Made by a program: the position numbers and the translations under genes. Shown here piece by piece: positions 294-21,970 of a stretch of DNA of 34,867 bases. The first letter of the stretch is position 1; each line of letters begins with the position of its first letter. Where the stretch lies: positions 1 to 34,867 of IMG/VR virus record IMGVR_UViG_3300005557_000002, one strand, 5' to 3'. The notes under the pieces are model-generated. The model was not told the origin of the DNA. It worked only from the letters and a program-made list of their open reading frames with translations, and did no database searches. The DNA is from a virus.

Positions 294-434
294 ATGCTAG
301 TTAATATACTTTGGATAGTATTTACAGTTTGTCTGCTGCTCACATTCGTTGCGGTAGTTATGGCGAGATATAAGCAGAAGGAAGAGGAGACGCCTGGACT
401 GGATAGAGTGCTGTTTAGAAGAAGGAGAAGATGA
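294..434 (+). CDS. Small single-span membrane protein
   Basis: A 46-residue protein starting at ATG 294 behind the SD GAGAGGAG (282-289). Residues 2-23 form one uninterrupted hydrophobic segment (LVNILWIVFTVCLLL...), followed by a charged tail that ends in five arginines. By the positive-inside rule the C-terminus should be cytoplasmic. No family is recognised. Its position in the early region, before the HTH gene, gives no clear role. A longer in-frame start at 153 exists but has no SD and overlaps the previous gene throughout. Confidence 0.55.
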   Translation: MLVNILWIVFTVCLLLTFVAVVMARYKQKEEETPGLDRVLFRRRRR

Positions 435-493
435 TGAACAATAGAGAGATGTACGGATATACGGATATTATCATCAGCAATACTTGTGGCTAC

Positions 494-522
494 TTGCGTC
501 TGTCTGCAAGTTATGCTACTAT
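494..522 (+). promoter_or_regulatory. Sigma-70-like promoter for the HTH gene at 561
   Basis: A -35 TTGCGT (494-499), 17-base spacer and -10 TACTAT (517-522), with TG one base upstream of the -10 (extended -10). It lies about 40 bases ahead of the start codon at 561, with SD AAAGGA at 546-551. It is one of several TGN-type promoters in this window. Confidence 0.5.
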
Positions 523-560
523 TCTAGATAGTAACGGTCAATCAAGAAAGGATCGAGGCC

Positions 561-761
561 ATGATCAACATGCAGGAACGGTTCTTTACGCCAGAGCAGA
601 TTGCAGAAACGCTGCAAGTCTCAGAAGACACAATCATGCGTCTCTTGAGAGAGAAGATGCTCAAAGGAACCAAAGTCAGGAATCAGTGGCGCATCAAAGA
701 GAGCGACCTGGAGAAGTTCCTGGAAGAAAACAGCAATATCCAAGAGGAACAGGACAAATAA
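561..761 (+). CDS. Excisionase-family helix-turn-helix DNA-binding protein
   Basis: A 66-residue protein with the pattern of the HTH_17/excisionase (MerR-like winged helix) family: FFTPEQIAETLQVSEDTIMRLLRE forms the two helices of the HTH, GTKVRNQWRIKESDLEKFL the wing and last helix. This family covers phage Xis proteins and small regulators that bend DNA. The SD AAAGGA sits 9 bases ahead of ATG 561, and a promoter is visible at 494-522. Because this frame is clearly coding, the very long overlapping frame that starts near 431 cannot be a real N-terminus for the downstream HNH gene. It could be a control protein rather than a true Xis; a second HTH of the same class lies directly before the integrase at 8117. 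Confidence 0.8.
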   Translation: MINMQERFFTPEQIAETLQVSEDTIMRLLREKMLKGTKVRNQWRIKESDLEKFLEENSNIQEEQDK

Positions 762-766
762 ATAAA

Positions 767-782
767 GCCAGCGTATGCTGGC
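767..782 (+). terminator. Perfect 6-bp hairpin after the HTH gene
   Basis: GCCAGC, GTAT loop, GCTGGC: a compact stem-loop 5 bases after the stop codon at 761. It lacks a following U-run, so it is at best a weak or factor-dependent terminator, or an mRNA 3'-end stabiliser. Confidence 0.35.
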
Positions 783-873
783 AGACAACAATTGAAAATT
801 TTGTAGCATTCAGGTCATCAGCTCTGCTGTGGAAGGTTAAAGCTAATGACCCTAGGATTCGCTACCCTGTTTT

Positions 874-952
874 TATAATACATAACCTTGCAAGAAAACG
901 CAAGGTCTTGTATAGCAGAACATGGGTAGACGATAGAAAGTGTGTACCCATG
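874..952 (+). promoter_or_regulatory. Promoter-like -10 and two hairpins leading into the HNH/AP2 gene
   Basis: A consensus TATAAT lies at 874-879, but no good -35 is seen. It is followed by a 7-bp stem (ACCTTGC 885-891 with GCAAGGT 900-906) and then an 8-bp stem, CATGGGTA (921-928) with TACCCATG (945-952). The ATG start codon of the HNH gene (950-952) is inside the second stem, and the purine-rich candidate SD (AGAAAG, about 935-940) is in its loop. Folded RNA should block translation initiation. Confidence 0.45.
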
Positions 953-1708
953 GAAGATGACAATTCAAGGATAATCCTCCTTAATCGCGGACAGGAAGTT
1001 ATTGTAGACGAAAAATGGTTTAGAGAACTAAATCAACGCAGATGGCACATTCGCGATGGCTATGCAGCAGCAAATATTGACGGCGAGCGGACTTACATGC
1101 ATCGTCACATCCTTCCTCCGCCAAAAGGCTACCTCGTTGACCATATCAACAGAAACAGGCTCGATAATCGCGAAGCAAATCTTCGGATAGTTACACATGT
1201 GCAAAATGCTCAAAACAGAGCATACCACAAGAATAATAAAACTGGCTATAAGGGCGTGTTTTTCCATGAAAACACGCAAATATATACTGCTGCGATACGC
1301 CAAGGTGGCAAGCTCCGTTATCTTGGTCAATTTAATACCGCGATAGAAGCAGCAATAGCATACAATAAAGCGGCTATCGAAATTTGCGGAGAATATGCTT
1401 GGACCAATCCAATAGATGAAGCAGCGCCTTTGTTCACACAGCCCCCTGTAAGCACCTATACATCTTGCGATCCATGGGAATGCAAAAATGATGGTAGCTA
1501 CAGTATGACCATAGGAAGTGCATATGCTGATATATGCCCGTATATCTCCAGATCCAAGACATACTATCGGGCAACCGTGCAAGGCCCCAACACTCCTCGA
1601 CTGCAAGAGAGTCTCTTTATTACTATTGATGAGGCAAAGGGATGGTGTGAGCAGTGGATACACCACTTCGATGAATACCAACAACTCAAAAAAGCAGCAG
1701 AGCGATAG
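950..1708 (+). CDS. HNH homing-endonuclease-like protein with AP2 domain
   Basis: A 252-residue protein. About residues 10-60 match the usual N-terminus of HNH/AP2 endonucleases (RIILLNRGQEVIVDEKWFREL...). The HNH_3 core follows (MHRHILPPPKGYLVDHINRN...NREANLR; His in VDHIN, Asn in NRLDN). An AP2 DNA-binding domain comes next (GYKGVFFHENTQIYTAAI...YLGQFNTAIEAAIAYNKAA), then a C-terminal region with no clear family. Such free-standing enzymes cut phage DNA and spread by homing. ATG 950 is chosen because the fold begins there and the upstream frame overlaps the HTH gene in another phase. It sits between an HTH gene and the primase, a typical intergenic site for a homing gene. Its start codon lies in a hairpin. 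Confidence 0.8.
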   Translation: MEDDNSRIILLNRGQEVIVDEKWFRELNQRRWHIRDGYAAANIDGERTYMHRHILPPPKGYLVDHINRNRLDNREANLRIVTHVQNAQNRAYHKNNKTGYKGVFFHENTQIYTAAIRQGGKLRYLGQFNTAIEAAIAYNKAAIEICGEYAWTNPIDEAAPLFTQPPVSTYTSCDPWECKNDGSYSMTIGSAYADICPYISRSKTYYRATVQGPNTPRLQESLFITIDEAKGWCEQWIHHFDEYQQLKKAAER

Positions 1709-14751: not shown

Positions 14752-15744
14752 TTAGAGCAGGCGTCCTCCCTCGGGCCATTCCCAGGGGAATTTATTCCCT
14801 TTGCTGAGGTTGCAAGTAGGGCAAGTCAATACCAAGTAGTCAATACTGTTAGCAGGAATATCGCTGCCAGTAACTCTGCTGAGTGGAAAGGTGTGTTCGA
14901 TGTGGTAGATATACTTGCCCCTAGTCTTCTGGAATTTAGCATGTCCACAAGCAGCATAATAGCATCTGCCTTTCTGCCGCTTCAGTTGCTCTTGGATTTG
15001 AGCACTGGTATGTTTGCCTTCGATGCCCTTTTTTCTTGCTCTGTAGGCATGGCCTATTGTTTGATACATTACCTTGTTCTGCTGGTAATGTCTCTTATGG
15101 CGATCCTTAGTGTATTCTTTGTGTGCTTGATAGTATCGTTTGCTTCGTTTAGAAACGTGGTCTTTGTTAATCTCATTGTACTCCTTACAGTACTCTTTGT
15201 GCTCTTCTTTATGTGTATCGTTCCAGATTTTTTGACGTGCAAGGCGCTTGCCTCTGATTGTGGGTCGCATGCTATACTCTTTGCCTCTTTTGCTCTTGCA
15301 TCCCTTGCATTGATAGTCAAACCTTATTTCTTGCGCTGCACTACGATGAAAAAACTCTTCAGTCAATGGGTAGATGCTCTTGCATGTAGGACATCGCCTG
15401 TGCCCTTCAGGGACATCTGTGGTTTTAGGAGGTCTGGCAAGGCACTTCTTGCAATAAGGGTACAATCCGTCACTCCTCCCTTTGGCTCTAGAGAAGAAAT
15501 CTACAGTAGCAGGCTTGATTTCTTTACATTTGCTGCATCGCTTATGACCTTCTGGTATAGCAATGTGGGGCTTTTCCTTATTTTCTTTGTTGGATATCAT
15601 TACACAGCTTTTGCACTGAGTATTGAGCCCATCTTTTTGGCGTTTATGGGAGAAAAAATGTTCTTTGGTAGCAGGAAAGAATTGGTTACATTTCCTGCAT
15701 TGCTTGAGGGGAACATTGACGTTCTGGGGTACAATATCACTCAT
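14752..15744 (-). CDS. HNH endonuclease with three tandem zinc modules (antisense to the late operon)
   Basis: A 330-residue protein. Three modules of the form C-x2-C-x5-P-x-x-x-x-F...C-K-x-C occupy residues 16-125, joined by IPEGHKRC / VPEGHRRC linkers; two of them also carry DGL. A basic region of about 16-residue repeats (KRYYQAHKEYTKDRHKRHYQQNK) follows, then a C-terminal HNH domain (YIYHIEHTFPLSR...LVLTCPTCNLSKGNK) with zinc Cys pairs, ending PEGGRLL. Free-standing HNH genes of this kind are selfish homing elements; the zinc modules probably bind DNA. It opposes the structural genes and ends right after the portal stop. It is paralogous to 20683-21879, sharing the C-terminus and promoter/leader. 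The start ATG 15744 has SD AAAGGAG inside a small hairpin. Confidence 0.82.
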   Translation of the reverse strand: MSDIVPQNVNVPLKQCRKCNQFFPATKEHFFSHKRQKDGLNTQCKSCVMISNKENKEKPHIAIPEGHKRCSKCKEIKPATVDFFSRAKGRSDGLYPYCKKCLARPPKTTDVPEGHRRCPTCKSIYPLTEEFFHRSAAQEIRFDYQCKGCKSKRGKEYSMRPTIRGKRLARQKIWNDTHKEEHKEYCKEYNEINKDHVSKRSKRYYQAHKEYTKDRHKRHYQQNKVMYQTIGHAYRARKKGIEGKHTSAQIQEQLKRQKGRCYYAACGHAKFQKTRGKYIYHIEHTFPLSRVTGSDIPANSIDYLVLTCPTCNLSKGNKFPWEWPEGGRLL

Positions 15745-15833
15745 GGAAAGGCTAACTCCTTTTCATCACGCCTCCAGATGTTGACTGCATCGTGGGGGCA
15801 AAAACATGTTCAATTTATGAGATTATTATACCA
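15745..15833 (-). promoter_or_regulatory. Promoter and structured leader of the antisense HNH gene
   Basis: Read on the - strand: TGG-TATAAT (15833-15825), a leader, then the conserved hairpin at 15799-15770 (GCC-C-CCA-c-GATG, 7-base loop, CATC-TGG-A-GGC), then GTGATGA, then AAAGG (15762-15758) pairing with CCTTT (15751-15747) around the SD. The promoter block is about 90% identical over 32 bases to that at 16061-16095. Confidence 0.6.
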
Positions 15834-15857
15834 TAAATTGGCTTGGAGGGCTAGCCT

Positions 15858-16052
15858 GTGAATAATCCTAACGAGCATCAGAAAGTACGTTGCAGGAACA
15901 ACCATACTATCCTGCATTATGATGCACAAGGGTTGCATCTCCGTTGTAGGCATTGTAAGACAATCGAGATAAAACCCTGGGCAGAAGTATTGCAGATGTA
16001 CACATCCATTGCATCTTCACCAGAATTTGATGCTCGTATCTTGCATTCCTAA
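15858..16052 (+). CDS. Com-like small zinc-binding protein
   Basis: A 64-residue protein starting at GTG 15858 behind SD GGAGGG (15845-15850). KVRCRNNHTILHYDAQG followed by LHLRCRHCKTIEIKPW resembles the Com family of phage Mu-type small zinc proteins, (I/V)RC..C...LL......I.I.CPRCK, except that the first pair is Cys-x3-His here. Mu Com activates translation of the mom DNA-modification gene; related small proteins are frequent near phage head genes with unknown roles. It lies between the diverging promoters of two HNH genes. Function is inferred only from the pattern. Confidence 0.5.
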   Translation: MNNPNEHQKVRCRNNHTILHYDAQGLHLRCRHCKTIEIKPWAEVLQMYTSIASSPEFDARILHS

Positions 16053-16081
16053 TTGCTTCTCAAGCCGATTTATGGTATACT
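16053..16081 (+). promoter_or_regulatory. Promoter of the HNH gene at 16155
   Basis: -35 TTGCTT (16053-16058), 17-base spacer, -10 TATACT (16076-16081), with TG one base upstream of the -10. The block ATTTATGGTATACTAA matches the promoters of the two antisense HNH genes. The -35 overlaps the stop region of the Com-like gene. Confidence 0.6.
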
Positions 16082-16100
16082 AAGCTCATAAATATTGTGT

Positions 16101-16129
16101 GCCCCGGCGTTGCTGAAACAACCCGAGGC
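16101..16129 (+). ncRNA. Conserved leader hairpin (copy 1 of 3)
   Basis: GCC-C-CGG-c-GTTG, 6-base loop, CAAC-CCG-A-GGC, directly followed by GTGATGA. Copies 2 (15799-15770) and 3 (21939-21911), both on the - strand, keep the same stem lengths, a GCC/GGC base and an unpaired C on the 5' side, while inner pairs change together (CGG/CCG, CCA/TGG, GCG/CGC; GTTG/CAAC versus GATG/CATC). Confidence 0.6.
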
Positions 16130-16132
16130 GTG

Positions 16133-16156
16133 ATGACAGAAAGGAACTTCCGTCAT
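16133..16156 (+). promoter_or_regulatory. Hairpin covering the SD and start codon of the HNH gene
   Basis: ATGAC (16133-16137) pairs with GTCAT (16152-16156), then after one mismatch GAA (16139-16141) with TTC (16148-16150). The SD AAAGGA (16140-16145) is in the inner stem and loop, and the first two bases of ATG 16155 are in the outer stem. Folded RNA should limit initiation. Confidence 0.5.
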
Positions 16157-16754
16157 GAGTATCAGTATACCATCTTCAAAAATATGCATCCATTGCCACC
16201 AAGAAAAGTCCCCCGATGATTTCTACTATCCCTACAAAAATGTCTGCAAGCAATGTAATCTGGCCTATCAAAAAAGAGAGAGGCAAAGAATAAAGCTTCA
16301 GCAGCAGTCATTTCCACCTCCTGATGTTAATCAGACAAAACAGTGCAGAGCATGCAAAGAGATCAAAAATGTTGAGGCCTTTAAAAAGGATAAAGGGACG
16401 CGTGGGGGGTACATATCTCTTTGTAAGGCGTGTCATGTTAAGGAAGAGTATAAGAGGTCAACGACGAACCCCAATAGAACGCCCTCACGTCGATGGAAAA
16501 AGATAAATTTTACATACAAGGAGTACTGCCGAATGCTAGAAGAGCAAGGCGGTGTGTGTGCTATCTGTAAACAGTCGGAAACTATTGTCAATCGTGCTCA
16601 TAATACGCCTCTTCAGCTTGCAGTTGATCACAATCACGATACCGGACAGGTTCGCTCATTACTTTGCAGTGCCTGTAATTTAGCTGTAGAGAGAGTAGAA
16701 AGAGATATAGAGTATCATAAAAGCTTGCTTGCATACCTGGAACTTCACTCATGA
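16155..16754 (+). CDS. HNH endonuclease, endonuclease VII-like, with zinc modules
   Basis: A 199-residue protein. Two N-terminal zinc modules (CIHCHQEK...CKQC and CRACKEIKN...CKAC) resemble those of the antisense HNH genes. The catalytic part is of the recombination endonuclease VII type: YCRMLEEQGGVCAICKQ, then LAVDHNHDTGQVRSLLCSACNLAVERV, with the DHxHxTG and CxxCN signatures. It is probably a free-standing homing endonuclease inserted ahead of the capsid genes; a Holliday-junction resolvase role is possible, but the zinc modules and shared promoter/leader argue for homing. It has its own promoter, leader hairpin and terminator, so it is a self-contained unit. Confidence 0.85.
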   Translation: MSISIPSSKICIHCHQEKSPDDFYYPYKNVCKQCNLAYQKRERQRIKLQQQSFPPPDVNQTKQCRACKEIKNVEAFKKDKGTRGGYISLCKACHVKEEYKRSTTNPNRTPSRRWKKINFTYKEYCRMLEEQGGVCAICKQSETIVNRAHNTPLQLAVDHNHDTGQVRSLLCSACNLAVERVERDIEYHKSLLAYLELHS

Positions 16755-16774
16755 TGGATACACAGCGCGTTGAC

Positions 16775-16799
16775 AGGATAGCAGAATACATGCTATCCT
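16775..16799 (+). terminator. Terminator after the HNH gene
   Basis: AGGATAGCA (16775-16783), loop GAATACA, TGCTATCCT (16791-16799): a perfect 9-bp stem followed by TATTCTATATT. It lies 20 bases after the HNH stop. Confidence 0.65.
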
Positions 16800-16843
16800 T
16801 ATTCTATATTCGATTGAAATAAAGAGCTTTAGTCCAGAGAGAC

Positions 16844-16877
16844 ATAGGCCCATACCGAAGAGGTAAGGGCCTATTTT
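16844..16877 (+). terminator. Second hairpin with U-run, overlapping the protease initiation region
   Basis: ATAGGCCC (16844-16851) pairs with GGGCCTAT (16867-16874), with an inner TACC/GGTA stem (16853-16856, 16862-16865) around GAAGA, and is followed by TTT and the ATG at 16878. It has terminator form, but it also buries the only SD-like sequence (AAGGG at 16865-16869) of the protease gene. Confidence 0.5.
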
Positions 16878-18305
16878 ATGATTGAAACGAAATGGACACA
16901 AGCAGCAAGAGATGCATATTATGCTGAGCATCCTGAGAACTTTGCTGACCCTAAGAATAAAGCGTACCCCATAAAAGATGCGAACGACGTAAAAGACGCG
17001 TGGAACCTTGCTGGTCATGCTGCTAATCCTGATGCTGTACGCTCCAAGATCAAGAGTATCGCCGCACGCCTGGGGCTTACCTCTGCCCTTCCTGACACCG
17101 CCAAGGATGGCAAGAAAGAGGCGTCATCTGAGGCGACAAACCGCATAGCACGCGTCAAATCCGTTTTCTTGGAGGATGACACCACCTCTCTGAATGGCAG
17201 AAAGTACCCTGCACAGACTGTCAATCGTCTCATCCAGGCTGCTCAAGTCCAACTCTCCGATCCCAACGCCCTTCCTCTCACGGTCTACCTTTCCCATAAT
17301 GCTGCATTCGATGATGCTACTCAGGAGATTGTCGGCAAGGTTGCAGCTATCGGCAAGGAAGGTACCCAAGCTTTTGCGCTTATCGATGTACCCGATACGC
17401 AGGCAGGCCGTGAAGTGGTCAATCTGGTCAAAGGTGGCTACATCAAGTCGCAGAGCCTACGAGCCGTCAATGCTGAAATGTACATCGACCAGAACGAGCC
17501 ATATCCCCTAGTTGGCGGCGAAAATATCCGCCTCACTGGCATTGATTTCACCTCATCCCCAGGCATACCTAATGCACGCGTTGAATACGTCTCCGAATCA
17601 TCTGAATTTAAAGAACCTCAAAATATACGCGAAATCTTCCATACTTCTAAAGATACTTTACTTATTGAGGAACTATCTACTACACATCAGGAGAGCAAGG
17701 ATATTCCTGCATCTCCAGAAACAAAGGAGCCATTAATGACAGAAGAAGAAAAAGCTCAGCTCCTGAAGGAGTTCAGGGAGACTCTCCTGGCTGAACAGCA
17801 AGCTCAGCAGAAGGAAACTGAGAAGCAGCAAGATCCGCCTAAGCCTACTGCTGAAGATGCATTGAAGCTCTTGCAAGAGGCTGGCTACACCGTCCAAGCA
17901 CCAAAGACGCAAGAGCAACTTATGCAGGAAGCTCTTGATGCGAAGCTCTCTTCCATGCAAACCTCGGTTGAGCAGAAGCTTACCGAAATGCAATCTGTCT
18001 TTGAGCAGAAGGCTGTTGAAATGCAACAGAAGTTCAATCCTCGCTTCATTCCACAGCGCAAGAGTATGGTAGAAGGCTCAAATGCTGATGAGAAACCAGC
18101 AAAGAAGAACTACTATCGCAATGGGGATTATATGCGTGAGAAGATGAGAGATGTGAATGCACGTCTTGAGCTGATGGATCGCTCTCGGCCTAAGCCAGAG
18201 TGGTACAACGCCGAGCGGTTCTTGAAAGAACTTGAAATTGAGCTGATGGGATGGATGGATGCACAACATAGTTTTGATAATAAGTTAGAAGTAGGAGAGG
18301 TATAA
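16878..18305 (+). CDS. Capsid maturation protease with scaffold domain
   Basis: A 475-residue protein between portal and capsid. Residues 5-75 resemble the small DUF6582-type domain found in phage head genes (AYPIKDANDVKDAWNLAGHAANPDAVRSKIKSIAARLGL). Residues 90-240 look like a prohead serine protease (SLNGRKYPAQTVNRLI...LPLTVYLSHNAAFDD..., GGYIKSQSLRAV...LTGIDFTSSPGIPNARVEYV), with a candidate catalytic His in LSHNA and Ser in the SQSLRA or DFTSSPG segment. From about 287 on it is a helical, Gln/Glu-rich scaffold. It cuts the scaffold and capsid N-termini during head maturation. An internal start at 17736 may give a free scaffold protein. Confidence 0.75.
   Translation: MIETKWTQAARDAYYAEHPENFADPKNKAYPIKDANDVKDAWNLAGHAANPDAVRSKIKSIAARLGLTSALPDTAKDGKKEASSEATNRIARVKSVFLEDDTTSLNGRKYPAQTVNRLIQAAQVQLSDPNALPLTVYLSHNAAFDDATQEIVGKVAAIGKEGTQAFALIDVPDTQAGREVVNLVKGGYIKSQSLRAVNAEMYIDQNEPYPLVGGENIRLTGIDFTSSPGIPNARVEYVSESSEFKEPQNIREIFHTSKDTLLIEELSTTHQESKDIPASPETKEPLMTEEEKAQLLKEFRETLLAEQQAQQKETEKQQDPPKPTAEDALKLLQEAGYTVQAPKTQEQLMQEALDAKLSSMQTSVEQKLTEMQSVFEQKAVEMQQKFNPRFIPQRKSMVEGSNADEKPAKKNYYRNGDYMREKMRDVNARLELMDRSRPKPEWYNAERFLKELEIELMGWMDAQHSFDNKLEVGEV
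17736..18305 (+). CDS. Nested in-frame scaffold protein (internal start)
   Basis: ATG 17736 is codon 287 of the protease gene, and AAAGGAG lies at 17723-17729, a 6-base spacer; this is a better initiation site than that of the full-length gene. The product would be 189 residues, starting MTEEEKAQLLKEF and made of charged helices and a coiled coil (EQLMQEALDAKLSSMQTSVEQKLTEMQ). In lambda (C/Nu3) and other phages the scaffold is made from exactly such an internal start. It would fill the prohead and set its curvature. Translation from this site is inferred. Confidence 0.55.
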   Translation: MTEEEKAQLLKEFRETLLAEQQAQQKETEKQQDPPKPTAEDALKLLQEAGYTVQAPKTQEQLMQEALDAKLSSMQTSVEQKLTEMQSVFEQKAVEMQQKFNPRFIPQRKSMVEGSNADEKPAKKNYYRNGDYMREKMRDVNARLELMDRSRPKPEWYNAERFLKELEIELMGWMDAQHSFDNKLEVGEV

Positions 18306-18306
18306 C

Positions 18307-19743
18307 ATGCCCGCTAGTCTAAGAGAGATAAGAGAGAGCTTTTCGCTTTCTTCAACAGGTGGCTCCCTCAATCTTATCCTGAAACAAATCGACAGCACGC
18401 TCACTGAGTTGCAACGCAAGTGGGGACCGCTAGGCAGAGCTATCCCGCGTCAGACGTGGGAGACTGACATCTTTTACTTCAACACAAGGTCAGCACTTCC
18501 CCAGCCACAGCACTCGCTAGAAGCACCTCCGAACTCCGGAGTGGGCTCGGTAGCAGCAAGCAACTCGACCTACAAGCAGGGACAATTTCCAATCAAGCAT
18601 ACCGAGTCCATTGGCGACTTGTCCAAATTCATGGTACAGGTCGCACGTGCCAACGGGAACCTGTTCGACCTGGAGCTTGGGGCTCATGCCAAAGCGATGA
18701 CGTGGCTGGAGGAAACCACGCACATATATGGCTCAGCTCAGGCCACACTCAATACGAAGCGCCCTCAGTGGGATGGGATCGATATGATGGTTGCCAATGC
18801 CAATAAGATCGACGCCGGGACTCAACTTCTCGCATTTCAGATGATGGACAACGCCATTGACGCCGTTCGCGGTCGATATGCTCAAGAGCTTGGCATGGAC
18901 TACTTCTGGATGATGTCCCCAAAGATGCAATCTTACATCAACGGGTTGCACGTCCAGAACGCGCGTTACAATCAAGTGATGAAGCGCATGTTCTTGCGTG
19001 ATGACTATGGTGATCCGAGTGCACCTGTAGCAGATAATGCTATAGATGCAGGCGTTGAGGTTGAGTCGTATCGCAATATCCCCATCATCATTTCAAGTTT
19101 CATGGGCAATCAGGGCACCATGGGAACCATTAGCACAACTGGCAATACAGGGACTGGCTCCTCACTTGCTACCAGTCCTTACTACTACCGGGTGGAAGCG
19201 GTTACACGATATGGCTTGATGGCGGCCTCTGCTGAAGCTTCCCAAACGCCAGGAAGCGGGAATAACATTGTCTTGAGTTGGACAACACCAGCTCCAACGG
19301 ACGCCGACGGCAATGTGATCGACATCCTTGGCTACCGCATATTCCGCAGTACGGTAAGTGGCGCAGAGAGCCTGTATGCGCTGGTCGCAGCCTATGACAT
19401 CAATGACGCTGCGGTAACCTCCTTCACTGATACCGGGCTCATCCAAAACCCAGCAGTCACCAGTACGCTCTATTGGGCTACCGTTGCCTCCTCTGGTGCC
19501 AATGCCATTTCTGATGGCGTGACCTTCCCTCGTGTCCAGACTGGCACCCAGGTCACTGAGGATATCTACCTCATCCCACGTGATCCGGACATTCTCGTTT
19601 GCCCAGAAGTCAACCCGATTCAGACCGAGCTTCTCGCTGTCATCAATGCCAGATCGCGTCAATTTGCCTTGAATGCTGATAAGACGCTGGCGCTACGAGC
19701 ACCTGCGTTTGCTGCAAAAATTGGAAGAGTGAGGGCCGCATAA
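18307..19743 (+). CDS. Major capsid protein with inserted Fn3-like domain
   Basis: A 478-residue protein right after the protease/scaffold, with a strong SD (GGAGAGGT) before ATG 18307. The body resembles HK97-fold capsid proteins (WGPLGRAIPRQTWETDIFYF..., KHTESIGDLSKFMVQVARANGNLFDLE, MDYFWMMSPKMQSYING, ENIYLIPRDPD-type end strands). At about residues 275-385 lies an inserted beta-sandwich: SPYYYRVEAVTRYGLMAASAEAS...NNIVLSWTTPAP...ILGYRIFRSTVSG...FTDTGL, the signature of fibronectin type III domains. The HK97-like sequence resumes afterwards (EDIYLIPRDPDILVCPEVNPIQTELL). It forms the icosahedral shell, and the inserted domain is expected on the outer surface. Confidence 0.85.
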   Translation: MPASLREIRESFSLSSTGGSLNLILKQIDSTLTELQRKWGPLGRAIPRQTWETDIFYFNTRSALPQPQHSLEAPPNSGVGSVAASNSTYKQGQFPIKHTESIGDLSKFMVQVARANGNLFDLELGAHAKAMTWLEETTHIYGSAQATLNTKRPQWDGIDMMVANANKIDAGTQLLAFQMMDNAIDAVRGRYAQELGMDYFWMMSPKMQSYINGLHVQNARYNQVMKRMFLRDDYGDPSAPVADNAIDAGVEVESYRNIPIIISSFMGNQGTMGTISTTGNTGTGSSLATSPYYYRVEAVTRYGLMAASAEASQTPGSGNNIVLSWTTPAPTDADGNVIDILGYRIFRSTVSGAESLYALVAAYDINDAAVTSFTDTGLIQNPAVTSTLYWATVASSGANAISDGVTFPRVQTGTQVTEDIYLIPRDPDILVCPEVNPIQTELLAVINARSRQFALNADKTLALRAPAFAAKIGRVRAA

Positions 19744-20015
19744 TGTCAATTCTCATGTACCACGAACAGAATAGCGATGGGCATGTTGCTCTTAATGAAA
19801 AGATCATAGCAGGAGTGCACACGCCTGTAAGGAACTACCAGCAGAAAGGTCATTTTCTGGAGATAGATCCACCTGCTCATGCCAGAGAGCATGATGTTGA
19901 AGAGCTTCAAAAGTTGGGGCATCGTCTCGCCTCGCCAACTGAGCAGAATGCATATATGAAGCAGGAAAGAGGCAATCTTAGGGAACGGAAAACGCCAGGA
20001 TCATTGGAGGAATAG
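19743..20015 (+). CDS. Hypothetical head protein
   Basis: A 90-residue, hydrophilic protein whose ATG 19743 overlaps the capsid stop. It has no motif I recognise; HVALNEKIIAGVHTPVRNY is strand-like, and the second half is charged and helical (EHDVEELQKLGHRLASPTEQNAYMKQERG). Position after the major capsid gene suggests a minor head or decoration accessory. It ends directly before the next start (20016). Confidence 0.55.
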   Translation: MSILMYHEQNSDGHVALNEKIIAGVHTPVRNYQQKGHFLEIDPPAHAREHDVEELQKLGHRLASPTEQNAYMKQERGNLRERKTPGSLEE

Positions 20016-20588
20016 ATGCCAGTACAACAGCTTGATACCAATTATCGAACCATAGGCGGGCCAACTGATGGACAAAAAGCAACGTATTCTGTCGCAAAGG
20101 TTGGGCTGGTGCCTGCAAACAGTGCAACCGATATCTTCACAATCACAGCAGGCGGGCTACTTGTCAGAGTTACCCGTATCGAGATCGTAGGCACGAGCAC
20201 GGCTGCTACTGCTGCTGCTCTTGATGTACTATTGCTCAAGAGGAGTACTGCAAATACAGGAGGTACCTCAAAAGGTAGTCCCACATCTGTAGCCCATGAC
20301 AGCCAGAATGCACCTCCCAGTGCTACGGTACTCGCCTACACTGCTAATCCATCGGCCTTGGGAACACTTGTTGGCACTGCCATTCGTAACCAGAAGCTCA
20401 TGCTGGCGCTTGCCACCTACACTGCTACGGATTTCCCGCCAATGGATCGGGTGAACTGGGAATTTGGCAACCGACCAGCACAGGCGCTTGTCCTGCGACC
20501 TGGAGAGGTCCTTGCAATCAACTTGAATGGCGTCACACCTACGGCAACCGCGTCCCTGAATGTTGCAGCGGAATTTTCCGAGGAGTAA
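20016..20588 (+). CDS. Structural protein, possible head decoration
   Basis: A 190-residue protein rich in Thr, Ala, Gly and beta strands (TDIFTITAGGLLVRVTRIEIVGTS..., GEVLAINLNGVTPTATASLNVAAEF). The pattern is that of a small virion surface or head protein, and it follows the major capsid gene as decoration proteins often do. SD GGAGGAA precedes ATG 20016. No named family can be given. After its stop the + strand late operon is interrupted by an antisense HNH gene. Confidence 0.6.
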   Translation: MPVQQLDTNYRTIGGPTDGQKATYSVAKVGLVPANSATDIFTITAGGLLVRVTRIEIVGTSTAATAAALDVLLLKRSTANTGGTSKGSPTSVAHDSQNAPPSATVLAYTANPSALGTLVGTAIRNQKLMLALATYTATDFPPMDRVNWEFGNRPAQALVLRPGEVLAINLNGVTPTATASLNVAAEFSEE

Positions 20589-20682
20589 AGTAGAAGAAGC
20601 GTGAGAGGAAGTATAAGAAAGGAGGTGTGCTACGCCATACAGATTATCAATTGCATGCTGGCATAACTTGCTGTCTTTTAGG
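20589..20682 (+). other. Gap with an orphan consensus Shine-Dalgarno
   Basis: AAAGGAGGTG (20618-20627) is a full-length match to the anti-SD, but no normally spaced ATG, GTG or TTG follows; the only frame, from GTG 20627, is 19 codons. The HNH cassette on the other strand ends at 20683. It may be the leftover initiation region of a gene displaced by the cassette. Confidence 0.4.
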
Positions 20683-21879
20683 TTAGAGGAGACGTCCACC
20701 TTCTGGAAATTCCCAAGGGCACTTGTTTCCTTTGCTTTGATTGCAGTGAGGGCAAGTGAGAACAAGGTGAGAAATCTCATTACGAGGTTGAAGGTCTGTT
20801 CGTGTGATAGGGATGGTATGGTCAACGTGATAAACGTATTTCCCTTTGATCCTCTTGATCTTGGATCTGCAATAGTAGCAATAGTAACGTTGCCTCTTCA
20901 ACTGCTCTCGAATCTGTGCAGGGGTATGAGAGCCTGGAATGTTTTTAATACGAGCCCGACGATTGCGCGTGTAAATCCTAAGGTACTCTATGTACCATTC
21001 TTTGTGTGCTTGTCTATACTCCTTGCTATATTGCAGGCGCTTACCCTTATTGGCTGCATAATACATCTTTTGACGTTTGAGTATATCTTCCTTATGCAAG
21101 GCATAATGCTGTCGTTTCTTCTCTATGATCCATTCTCTGTTTTTATGCCAGTACTGTCTATCTCTTTGGGCTATACGTTCTCTCAGCAAGGGACGCCGCT
21201 CTCTTCGTCTTTGGTTTACTGCTTCTCTGTTTTGTTGCAAGTATTGTCTCTTTTCGTTTTGAGTACAAGCTTTGCATCGAGAGTACAATCCATCTTTAGA
21301 AGTTTTGCGTGCTCCAAAGTATTCACTAGTAGATGGCTTAATTTCTCGGCAACTCGAGCAGCGTTTTTGTCCTTCTGGAAGTTTCTCTATGGGCTTTCTT
21401 TTGAGCCTTCTCCTGTTACGGGTATATTCGTTTGCGCATTTTTTGCATCGAGACATAACTCCGTAAGCATACTCCTTGGCAGGATAAAAGAACTCGGTGG
21501 TTGCTGGAAGAATTTCTTGGCATTTAGAACACTGTCTATGTCCTTCAGGGATAGGATTAGGATTGGGCTGTTTCTTGCTTTCGCTATAAGCTCTACAGCA
21601 GATTTTGCACCAGGAATGCAGTCCACTTTTTTCCGTTCTACATGCATGAAAGTGTTGCATAGTGGCTGGTTTAACCTCTGTGCAATTTGGACAACGTTTG
21701 TATCCATCGGGCACAACAGGAGTTTTCCTTGGTTGAGGTTTCTTCCGCGCTTTGCAACATTTCTTGCAAAGCGTCCTGAGGTGATCTTGTTTGCTCCTAT
21801 CGGATTGAAAGTACTCAAGGGTGGCAGGATATTCTTGTTTGCACCCGTTGCAGCGTTTCTGTGGTATAGTATCACTCAT
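20683..21879 (-). CDS. HNH endonuclease with four tandem zinc modules (antisense)
   Basis: A 398-residue paralogue of the protein at 14752-15744. Four modules (CNGCKQEYPATLEYF...CKKC, CPNCTEVKPATMQHF...CKIC, CSKCQEILPATTEFF...CKKC, CSSCREIKPSTSEYF...CKAC) are linked by VPDGYKRC, IPEGHRQC and LPEGQKRC. A basic region of about 16-residue repeats follows (RQYWHKNREWIIEKKRQHY...), then the HNH domain (YVYHVDHTIPITR...LVLTCPHCNQSKGNK), ending PEGGRLL like its paralogue. It separates the head genes from the connector genes and opposes their direction. A large + strand open frame over the same bases is a shadow of it. It is probably a homing element whose module number differs from the sister copy. 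Confidence 0.83.
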   Translation of the reverse strand: MSDTIPQKRCNGCKQEYPATLEYFQSDRSKQDHLRTLCKKCCKARKKPQPRKTPVVPDGYKRCPNCTEVKPATMQHFHACRTEKSGLHSWCKICCRAYSESKKQPNPNPIPEGHRQCSKCQEILPATTEFFYPAKEYAYGVMSRCKKCANEYTRNRRRLKRKPIEKLPEGQKRCSSCREIKPSTSEYFGARKTSKDGLYSRCKACTQNEKRQYLQQNREAVNQRRRERRPLLRERIAQRDRQYWHKNREWIIEKKRQHYALHKEDILKRQKMYYAANKGKRLQYSKEYRQAHKEWYIEYLRIYTRNRRARIKNIPGSHTPAQIREQLKRQRYYCYYCRSKIKRIKGKYVYHVDHTIPITRTDLQPRNEISHLVLTCPHCNQSKGNKCPWEFPEGGRLL

Positions 21880-21970
21880 GGTACGTCTCCTTTAAGTTGC
21901 GTATCATCACGCCAGCGGTTGTTAGAGCAACGCGCTGGCAAACCCATATTTAGATGGGTTAATTATACCA
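21880..21970 (-). promoter_or_regulatory. Promoter and structured leader of the antisense HNH gene (copy 3)
   Basis: On the - strand: TGG-TATAAT (21970-21962), a perfect 7-bp palindrome AACCCAT/ATGGGTT (21960-21941) over the expected transcription start, the conserved hairpin at 21939-21911 (GCC-A-GCG-c-GTTG, loop CTCTAA, CAAC-CGC-T-GGC), then GTGATGA and the SD AAAGGAG. The start-region stem (TACG/CGTA) is weak here. Confidence 0.6.

Follow-up and report, generated by a model that had tools for sequence, protein, structure and literature searches.

We consider it likely, from sequence comparison, that three HNH endonuclease genes in a 34,867-nt viral DNA (the whole stretch analysed, hereafter the window) belong to cassettes with two opposed promoters, in which a predicted cis-antisense RNA of about 60 nt lies over the ribosome-binding site and would block translation. 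An earlier note had described a leader hairpin upstream of each gene (16101-16129 (+), 15799-15770 (-) and 21939-21911 (-)), with an unpaired C on its 5' side, GTGATGA directly after it and an extended -10 box, and all of these are present in the three copies. The reading of that hairpin as part of the mRNA has to be revised: the asymmetry of the mismatches, the fold energies and an opposite-strand -10 box at fixed spacing indicate a separate antisense RNA, and it is most likely the strand opposite the gene that forms the structured RNA.

The whole record contains exactly three occurrences of the sequence GGCGTGATGA, all at the HNH cassettes (Table 1). Genes B and C oppose the late genes and, therefore, their mRNA must come from a promoter of their own, which is present. 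At another HNH gene of the window (431-1708 (+), PHROG 99), no copy of the element was returned by the covariance search. A 64-codon Cys/His ORF (15858-16052 (+)), which resembles a small zinc ribbon, is located between cassettes A and B; its identification as a Com-like RNA-binding protein was discarded, as there was no PF10122 match in the window and the PHROG match was weak (E 0.13).

Table 1. Genes, promoters and predicted antisense RNAs of the three HNH cassettes in the window
Cassette	Feature	Position (strand)	Description	Basis
A	Predicted antisense RNA	16101..16157 (-)	start ~16157; 5' hairpin 16156-16133, 3' hairpin 16129-16101; U-poor tail beyond	fold, covariation, geometry
A	Antisense extended -10	16164..16172 (-)	TGG TATACT	sequence and conserved A...TA motif
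A	HNH gene promoter, extended -10	16073..16081 (+)	TGGTATACT	sequence; aligned in all close homologues
A	Shine-Dalgarno	16140..16145 (+)	AAAGGA; within 5' hairpin complement	sequence
A	HNH gene	16155..16754 (+)	Endonuclease_7 type (PF02945)	
B	Predicted antisense RNA	15742..15799 (+)	start ~15742; 5' hairpin 15743-15766, 3' hairpin 15770-15799	fold, covariation, geometry
B	Antisense -10	15730..15735 (+)	TACAAT, GGG before it	
B	HNH gene promoter, extended -10	15825..15833 (-)	TGGTATAAT	sequence
B	Gene	14752..15744 (-)	zinc-ribbon repeats and weak HNH match PF13395, below curated cut-off	
C	Predicted antisense RNA	21877..21939 (+)	start ~21877; 5' hairpin 21878-21907, 3' hairpin 21911-21939	fold, covariation, geometry
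C	Antisense extended -10	21862..21870 (+)	TGG TATAGT	
C	HNH gene promoter, extended -10	21962..21970 (-)	TGGTATAAT	
C	HNH gene	20683..21879 (-)	zinc-ribbon repeats and PF01844/PF13395	

Two covarying hairpins at the start of the gene

The inner pairs named by the earlier note do change together, and the compensated changes are real. In a MAFFT alignment of seven copies (the three of the window plus four from other contigs), 95.4% of the paired cells were standard pairs and 11 pairs were doubly changed, while slid controls of the same alignment gave 29-49% paired cells and 1-3 doubly changed pairs. Immediately 3' of this hairpin on the gene strand there is a second one, absent from that note, which covaries as strongly as the first and contains, on the gene strand, the Shine-Dalgarno together with the greater part of the start codon. 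Double changes were found at all 8 of its pairs in both the 15-sequence and the 34-sequence sets (covariation was assessed on 7, 14, 15 and 34 distinct sequences), and the same picture was obtained from the MAFFT alignment, which was fitted to no structure. Selection on RNA structure, as proposed before, is thus supported by compensated changes in both hairpins, and the homologues keep the stems as well as the compensation.

The Rfam 15 covariance models yielded no window match at the gathering score and no match to the element with E<=1, whether in the window or in the homologues, consistent with the earlier note, which did not recognise a known riboregulator. Any likeness to boxA or to HK022 put-like antiterminators was superficial. 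We also discarded a leader peptide from the conserved UGAUGA, because frames and stops vary between copies, and a long-range stem between the gene -10 and TATACC in read-through transcripts, which showed no compensation at variable positions.

Homologues and the genes that start inside them

Pattern scans of viral contigs returned four more independent copies (L005, L012, L019 and L022), each starting an HNH-type gene; L013 was near-identical to L012. When a scan required no hairpin but only the gene promoter, TTGCC and ACTATACC, two more true copies were obtained (L157, at the same locus as L152, and L160), and each had both hairpins. With a covariance model built from the seven copies (R1), the same viral records disclosed extra copies before GIY-YIG genes (L151, L153) and before a Vsr/DUF559-type gene (L152). 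Among 400 Chloroflexota genomes, R1 matched 9 and model R2 matched 17, and R2 also matched 21 of 296 Actinomycetota genomes. There were no matches in 49 genomes mostly of other phyla, a few Actinomycetota being included, or in 349 Pseudomonadota genomes at E<=1e-4. The last viral scan gave 22 stretches, 17 of them distinct. The element precedes a tyrosine integrase in the Gordonia phages Beenie and Adora, and an HNH gene in Gordonia phage Asapag and its relatives and in Microcystis phage MinS1. Homologues upstream of HNH genes, whose absence would have spoken against the earlier note, are therefore recovered by pattern and covariance searches. Those pattern matches in genome contigs that were inspected were chance matches in coding sequence, and BLAST of copy C against phage records produced only a chance-level match. 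Since close relatives of the element lie in Chloroflexota, we infer from these sequences that the host of the window phage belongs to that phylum (Ktedonobacteria-like). A hairpin similar to the 3' one was also seen upstream of rep in enterobacterial plasmids of small size, about 2.3 kb (L264:404-446, L267:213-255); its model score was weak (19.7 bits), and it may represent chance or a plasmid antisense RNA.

According to Pfam, the ORFs starting in the element encode Endonuclease_7, HNH, HNH_3, GIY-YIG, Vsr/DUF559, Cas1, Resolvase/Recombinase and phage integrase proteins. Others correspond to an HTH protein (HTH_17), to cysteine-rich proteins without assignment, or to short ORFs with an SSB or integrase gene after them. 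Hence, the element is indeed common to HNH genes but is not limited to them, as it is also found on other nucleases, recombinases and Cas1, and its link is with mobile-DNA enzymes generally. The suggestion that it goes with the mobile cassette is borne out. That the endonuclease itself binds the RNA, also suggested before, is unlikely, since several unrelated nucleases and recombinases carry the same RNA. The Cas1 genes (PF01867) that start inside the element belong to Chloroflexota and Actinomycetota and encode about 460-540 aa where complete (L186:6295-7914 (-), L187:6752-7573 (-), L199, L200, L214, L217, L218). In L186, DNA-methylase-like and helicase-like ORFs follow the Cas1 gene, and in L187 the frame breaks before the Cas1 domain ends. 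In a 13.7-Mb Chloroflexota genome (L162:1501-1732) the element is intact and the HNH-type gene is broken after 57 codons, with a serine-recombinase-like ORF downstream.

Some copies lack an ORF, have terminator-like hairpins downstream and, in some cases, lie near tRNA genes (ORF-less examples are L163:1501-1566, L183, L180 and L179); no cis action on a start codon is possible in them, and they are possibly stand-alone small RNA genes. The fact that such copies, including some beside tRNA genes, retain the hairpins and the -10 box, and that bulge and apex are conserved across unrelated target genes, would suit a free-standing structured small RNA with a function of its own, on a host protein or in trans, inside which mobile genes merely start. 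We regard this as an unlikely full account, because the Shine-Dalgarno and start codon are covered alike in every copy with an ORF and a random overlap would be less precise. A free-standing function and an antisense action are, however, mutually compatible.

The structured strand is probably opposite the gene

Read on the gene strand, the two hairpins would form a 5' leader of the endonuclease mRNA that hides the Shine-Dalgarno and the start codon and delays or tunes translation. The gene has its own promoter upstream, the second hairpin holds both signals, both stems covary on this strand, and there is precedent in T4 phages (I-TevI, segB and Aeh1 mobE; PMC2988022). We nevertheless find such a leader rather improbable, first because the gene strand is nearly devoid of G.U pairs and A.C is common. 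The non-Watson-Crick cells of both stems comprised 47 A.C, 4 G.U and 5 others, even though alignment had followed a gene-strand model, which would favour G.U tolerance (sign test of A.C versus G.U, p 2e-10, ignoring relatedness; the copies are kin and cell counts are not independent events). Since an A.C on the gene strand corresponds to a G.U on its complement, the mismatches fit wobble pairs in an antisense RNA. Within the second hairpin, the internal and conserved A.C "mismatch" is likewise a wobble pair on the antisense strand, where the 5' hairpin is one continuous helix.

The gene strand also folds less well than its complement. The antisense strand gave the better fold in 54 of 56 copies (mean -34.2 versus -28.2 kcal/mol) and in all 13 further actinophage-type copies. 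For antisense RNAs A, B and C, the energies were -29.3, -27.2 and -29.1 kcal/mol (z -5.72, -5.03 and -4.75, respectively), and 0 of 200 shuffles were as good in each case. Folding of the full gene-strand segments of copies A, B and C was modest (z -2.2, -1.8 and -2.3), as was that of the gene-strand hairpin holding the Shine-Dalgarno, whose mismatches suit the other strand. The predicted antisense element is, then, a structured small RNA with selection on its own strand. The covariance models represent the gene strand; when the antisense RNAs were aligned by MAFFT, the 5' hairpin came out wrongly placed.

An mRNA leader would leave unexplained both the copies without an ORF and a conserved opposite-strand -10 box at a fixed distance. 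All 46 coding copies carry the motif A...TA, which starts 4 to 13 nt past the first nucleotide of the start codon and is found in 0 to 15% of the downstream control windows. Its complement on the opposite strand reads TAnnnT, which corresponds to the invariant positions of a -10 box, and in most cases the G of an extended -10 accompanies it. Translated, the motif gives Ile/Val-Pro in the Chloroflexota phage group and a T-ending codon plus Thr in the GC-rich group, and the box is also kept in copies without an ORF; because copies differ in frame, some reading xTA CCx and others xxT ACC, and the box is present without an ORF, it is not a protein motif. For MSDTIP, too, a role as protein motif was rejected, the same nucleotides being read in different frames elsewhere and occurring also where no protein is encoded. 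The Ile/Val codon at the box is, within the Chloroflexota phage group, always ATA or GTA, ATA making up 24% of the Ile codons of the window phage. With the start set 6 nt past the box, the first paired base of the 5' hairpin falls at position 1-2 in 54 of 56 copies, a figure somewhat inflated by keeping, among several candidate boxes, that closest to the hairpin. A start point 6-7 nt from the box thus coincides with this base in these copies. In L151, L153, L165 and L230, which have a displaced start codon, the box stays with the RNA and not with the start codon. In the last viral set, the same search returned no box for 3 of its 16 copies. Inspection by eye revealed no consistent -35 element for the antisense promoter; the full TG of an extended -10 was present in only part of the coding copies, and several ORF-less copies have a complete TGn at the box. 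None of the window copies has a clear U-tract after the 3' hairpin and their terminator is, therefore, doubtful; a U-rich tail follows this hairpin in many GC-rich copies.

Finally, the paired inverted repeats could act as DNA, as a recombination or nuclease-recognition site marking the mobile cassette, which would agree with their near-palindromic sequence and with the many mobile-DNA genes among the carriers, but this is highly improbable because selection for a palindrome would neither prefer A.C to G.U on one strand nor preserve the -10 box and its spacing to the start point.

Proposed mechanism and relation to known systems

We propose that each cassette contains two converging promoters, about 80-90 bp apart. 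The extended -10 promoter TGGTATAAT would give the endonuclease mRNA, and the opposite-strand promoter (G-n-TAnnnT), located within the first codons, would give the compact antisense RNA of about 60 nt. The latter would be made of a 5' hairpin from nucleotide 1 or 2, a 3-nt linker and a GC-rich 3' hairpin bearing a bulged G, with a U-rich tail in many copies. By coordinates and sequence, it maps antisense to the 5' end of the gene and is fully complementary to the leader, the Shine-Dalgarno and the start codon. Once made, it would pair with its mRNA and block translation, so that the DNA-cutting enzyme would be kept low, and lower still as copies of the phage or element rise, as in the multicopy inhibition of IS10. 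For the three window copies, the predicted pairing was -126 to -135 kcal/mol with the cognate mRNA and -50 to -60 kcal/mol in cross combinations; cognate pairing being far stronger, each RNA would act mainly on its own gene.

The nearest known mechanism, by analogy, is that of IS10 RNA-OUT, an RNA of 69 nt that comes from the opposite strand and pairs with the translation start of the transposase (PMC5006887). In both cases a short opposite-strand RNA with its own promoter (here a predicted one) lies over the start of a DNA-cutting mobile enzyme, and it is this analogy that suggests an inhibition of translation growing with copy number. In contrast to RNA-OUT, the present RNA has two hairpins and no Rfam sequence or covariance match, and one homologous RNA is common to many unrelated genes in two phyla. 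On these grounds, the predicted RNA probably keeps mobile-DNA enzymes in check by repressing translation.

In the endonuclease genes I-TevI, segB and mobE of T4 and Aeh1, RNA structure over the ribosome-binding site is found on the mRNA itself (PMC2988022). Those hairpins resemble the present element in covering the ribosome-binding site of phage HNH/GIY-YIG endonuclease genes; however, they are mRNA structures described gene by gene, whereas here the better structure is antisense and one homologous family extends across nuclease folds. Also unlike I-TevI, there is no internal late promoter that escapes the hairpin: the gene promoter is upstream of both hairpins and its transcript consequently contains them, which the I-TevI late transcript does not. 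A conserved RNA beside an HNH gene also occurs in the HEARO or omega RNAs of IscB-type HNH nucleases. The present element differs from them in having no Rfam match, in its far smaller size, and in its position across the start codon, which it takes on recombinase and cas1 genes as well. In the titles and abstracts searched, which covered few subscription journals, we found none that described control of homing endonucleases by an antisense RNA.

An RNA acting solely as antisense does not need a conserved hairpin apex. Because the apex and bulge of the 3' hairpin are conserved in unrelated genes, the sequences suggest that a common host factor may bind or process this hairpin. We tentatively extend the proposal to a single antisense-RNA family that would serve as a portable off-switch for unrelated mobile-DNA enzymes, with a shared host factor and with stand-alone copies acting in trans. 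With equal reserve, such a switch might embrace HNH, GIY-YIG, Vsr-like and Cas1 enzymes and tyrosine and serine recombinases, in Chloroflexota, Actinomycetota and their phages.

To our knowledge, most of what is known on the control of homing endonucleases and other mobile-DNA enzymes against harm to their carrier comes from T4 and a small number of transposons. Antisense control as such is known, but a homologous antisense RNA common to unrelated mobile genes would be new. Moreover, a covarying "leader" may be the wrong strand of a structured RNA, which is relevant to RNA motif discovery. Cultured Gordonia phages offer testable cases. If true, the antisense proposal would mean a general layer of control over many unrelated mobile genes, and such genes could be found by the RNA alone.
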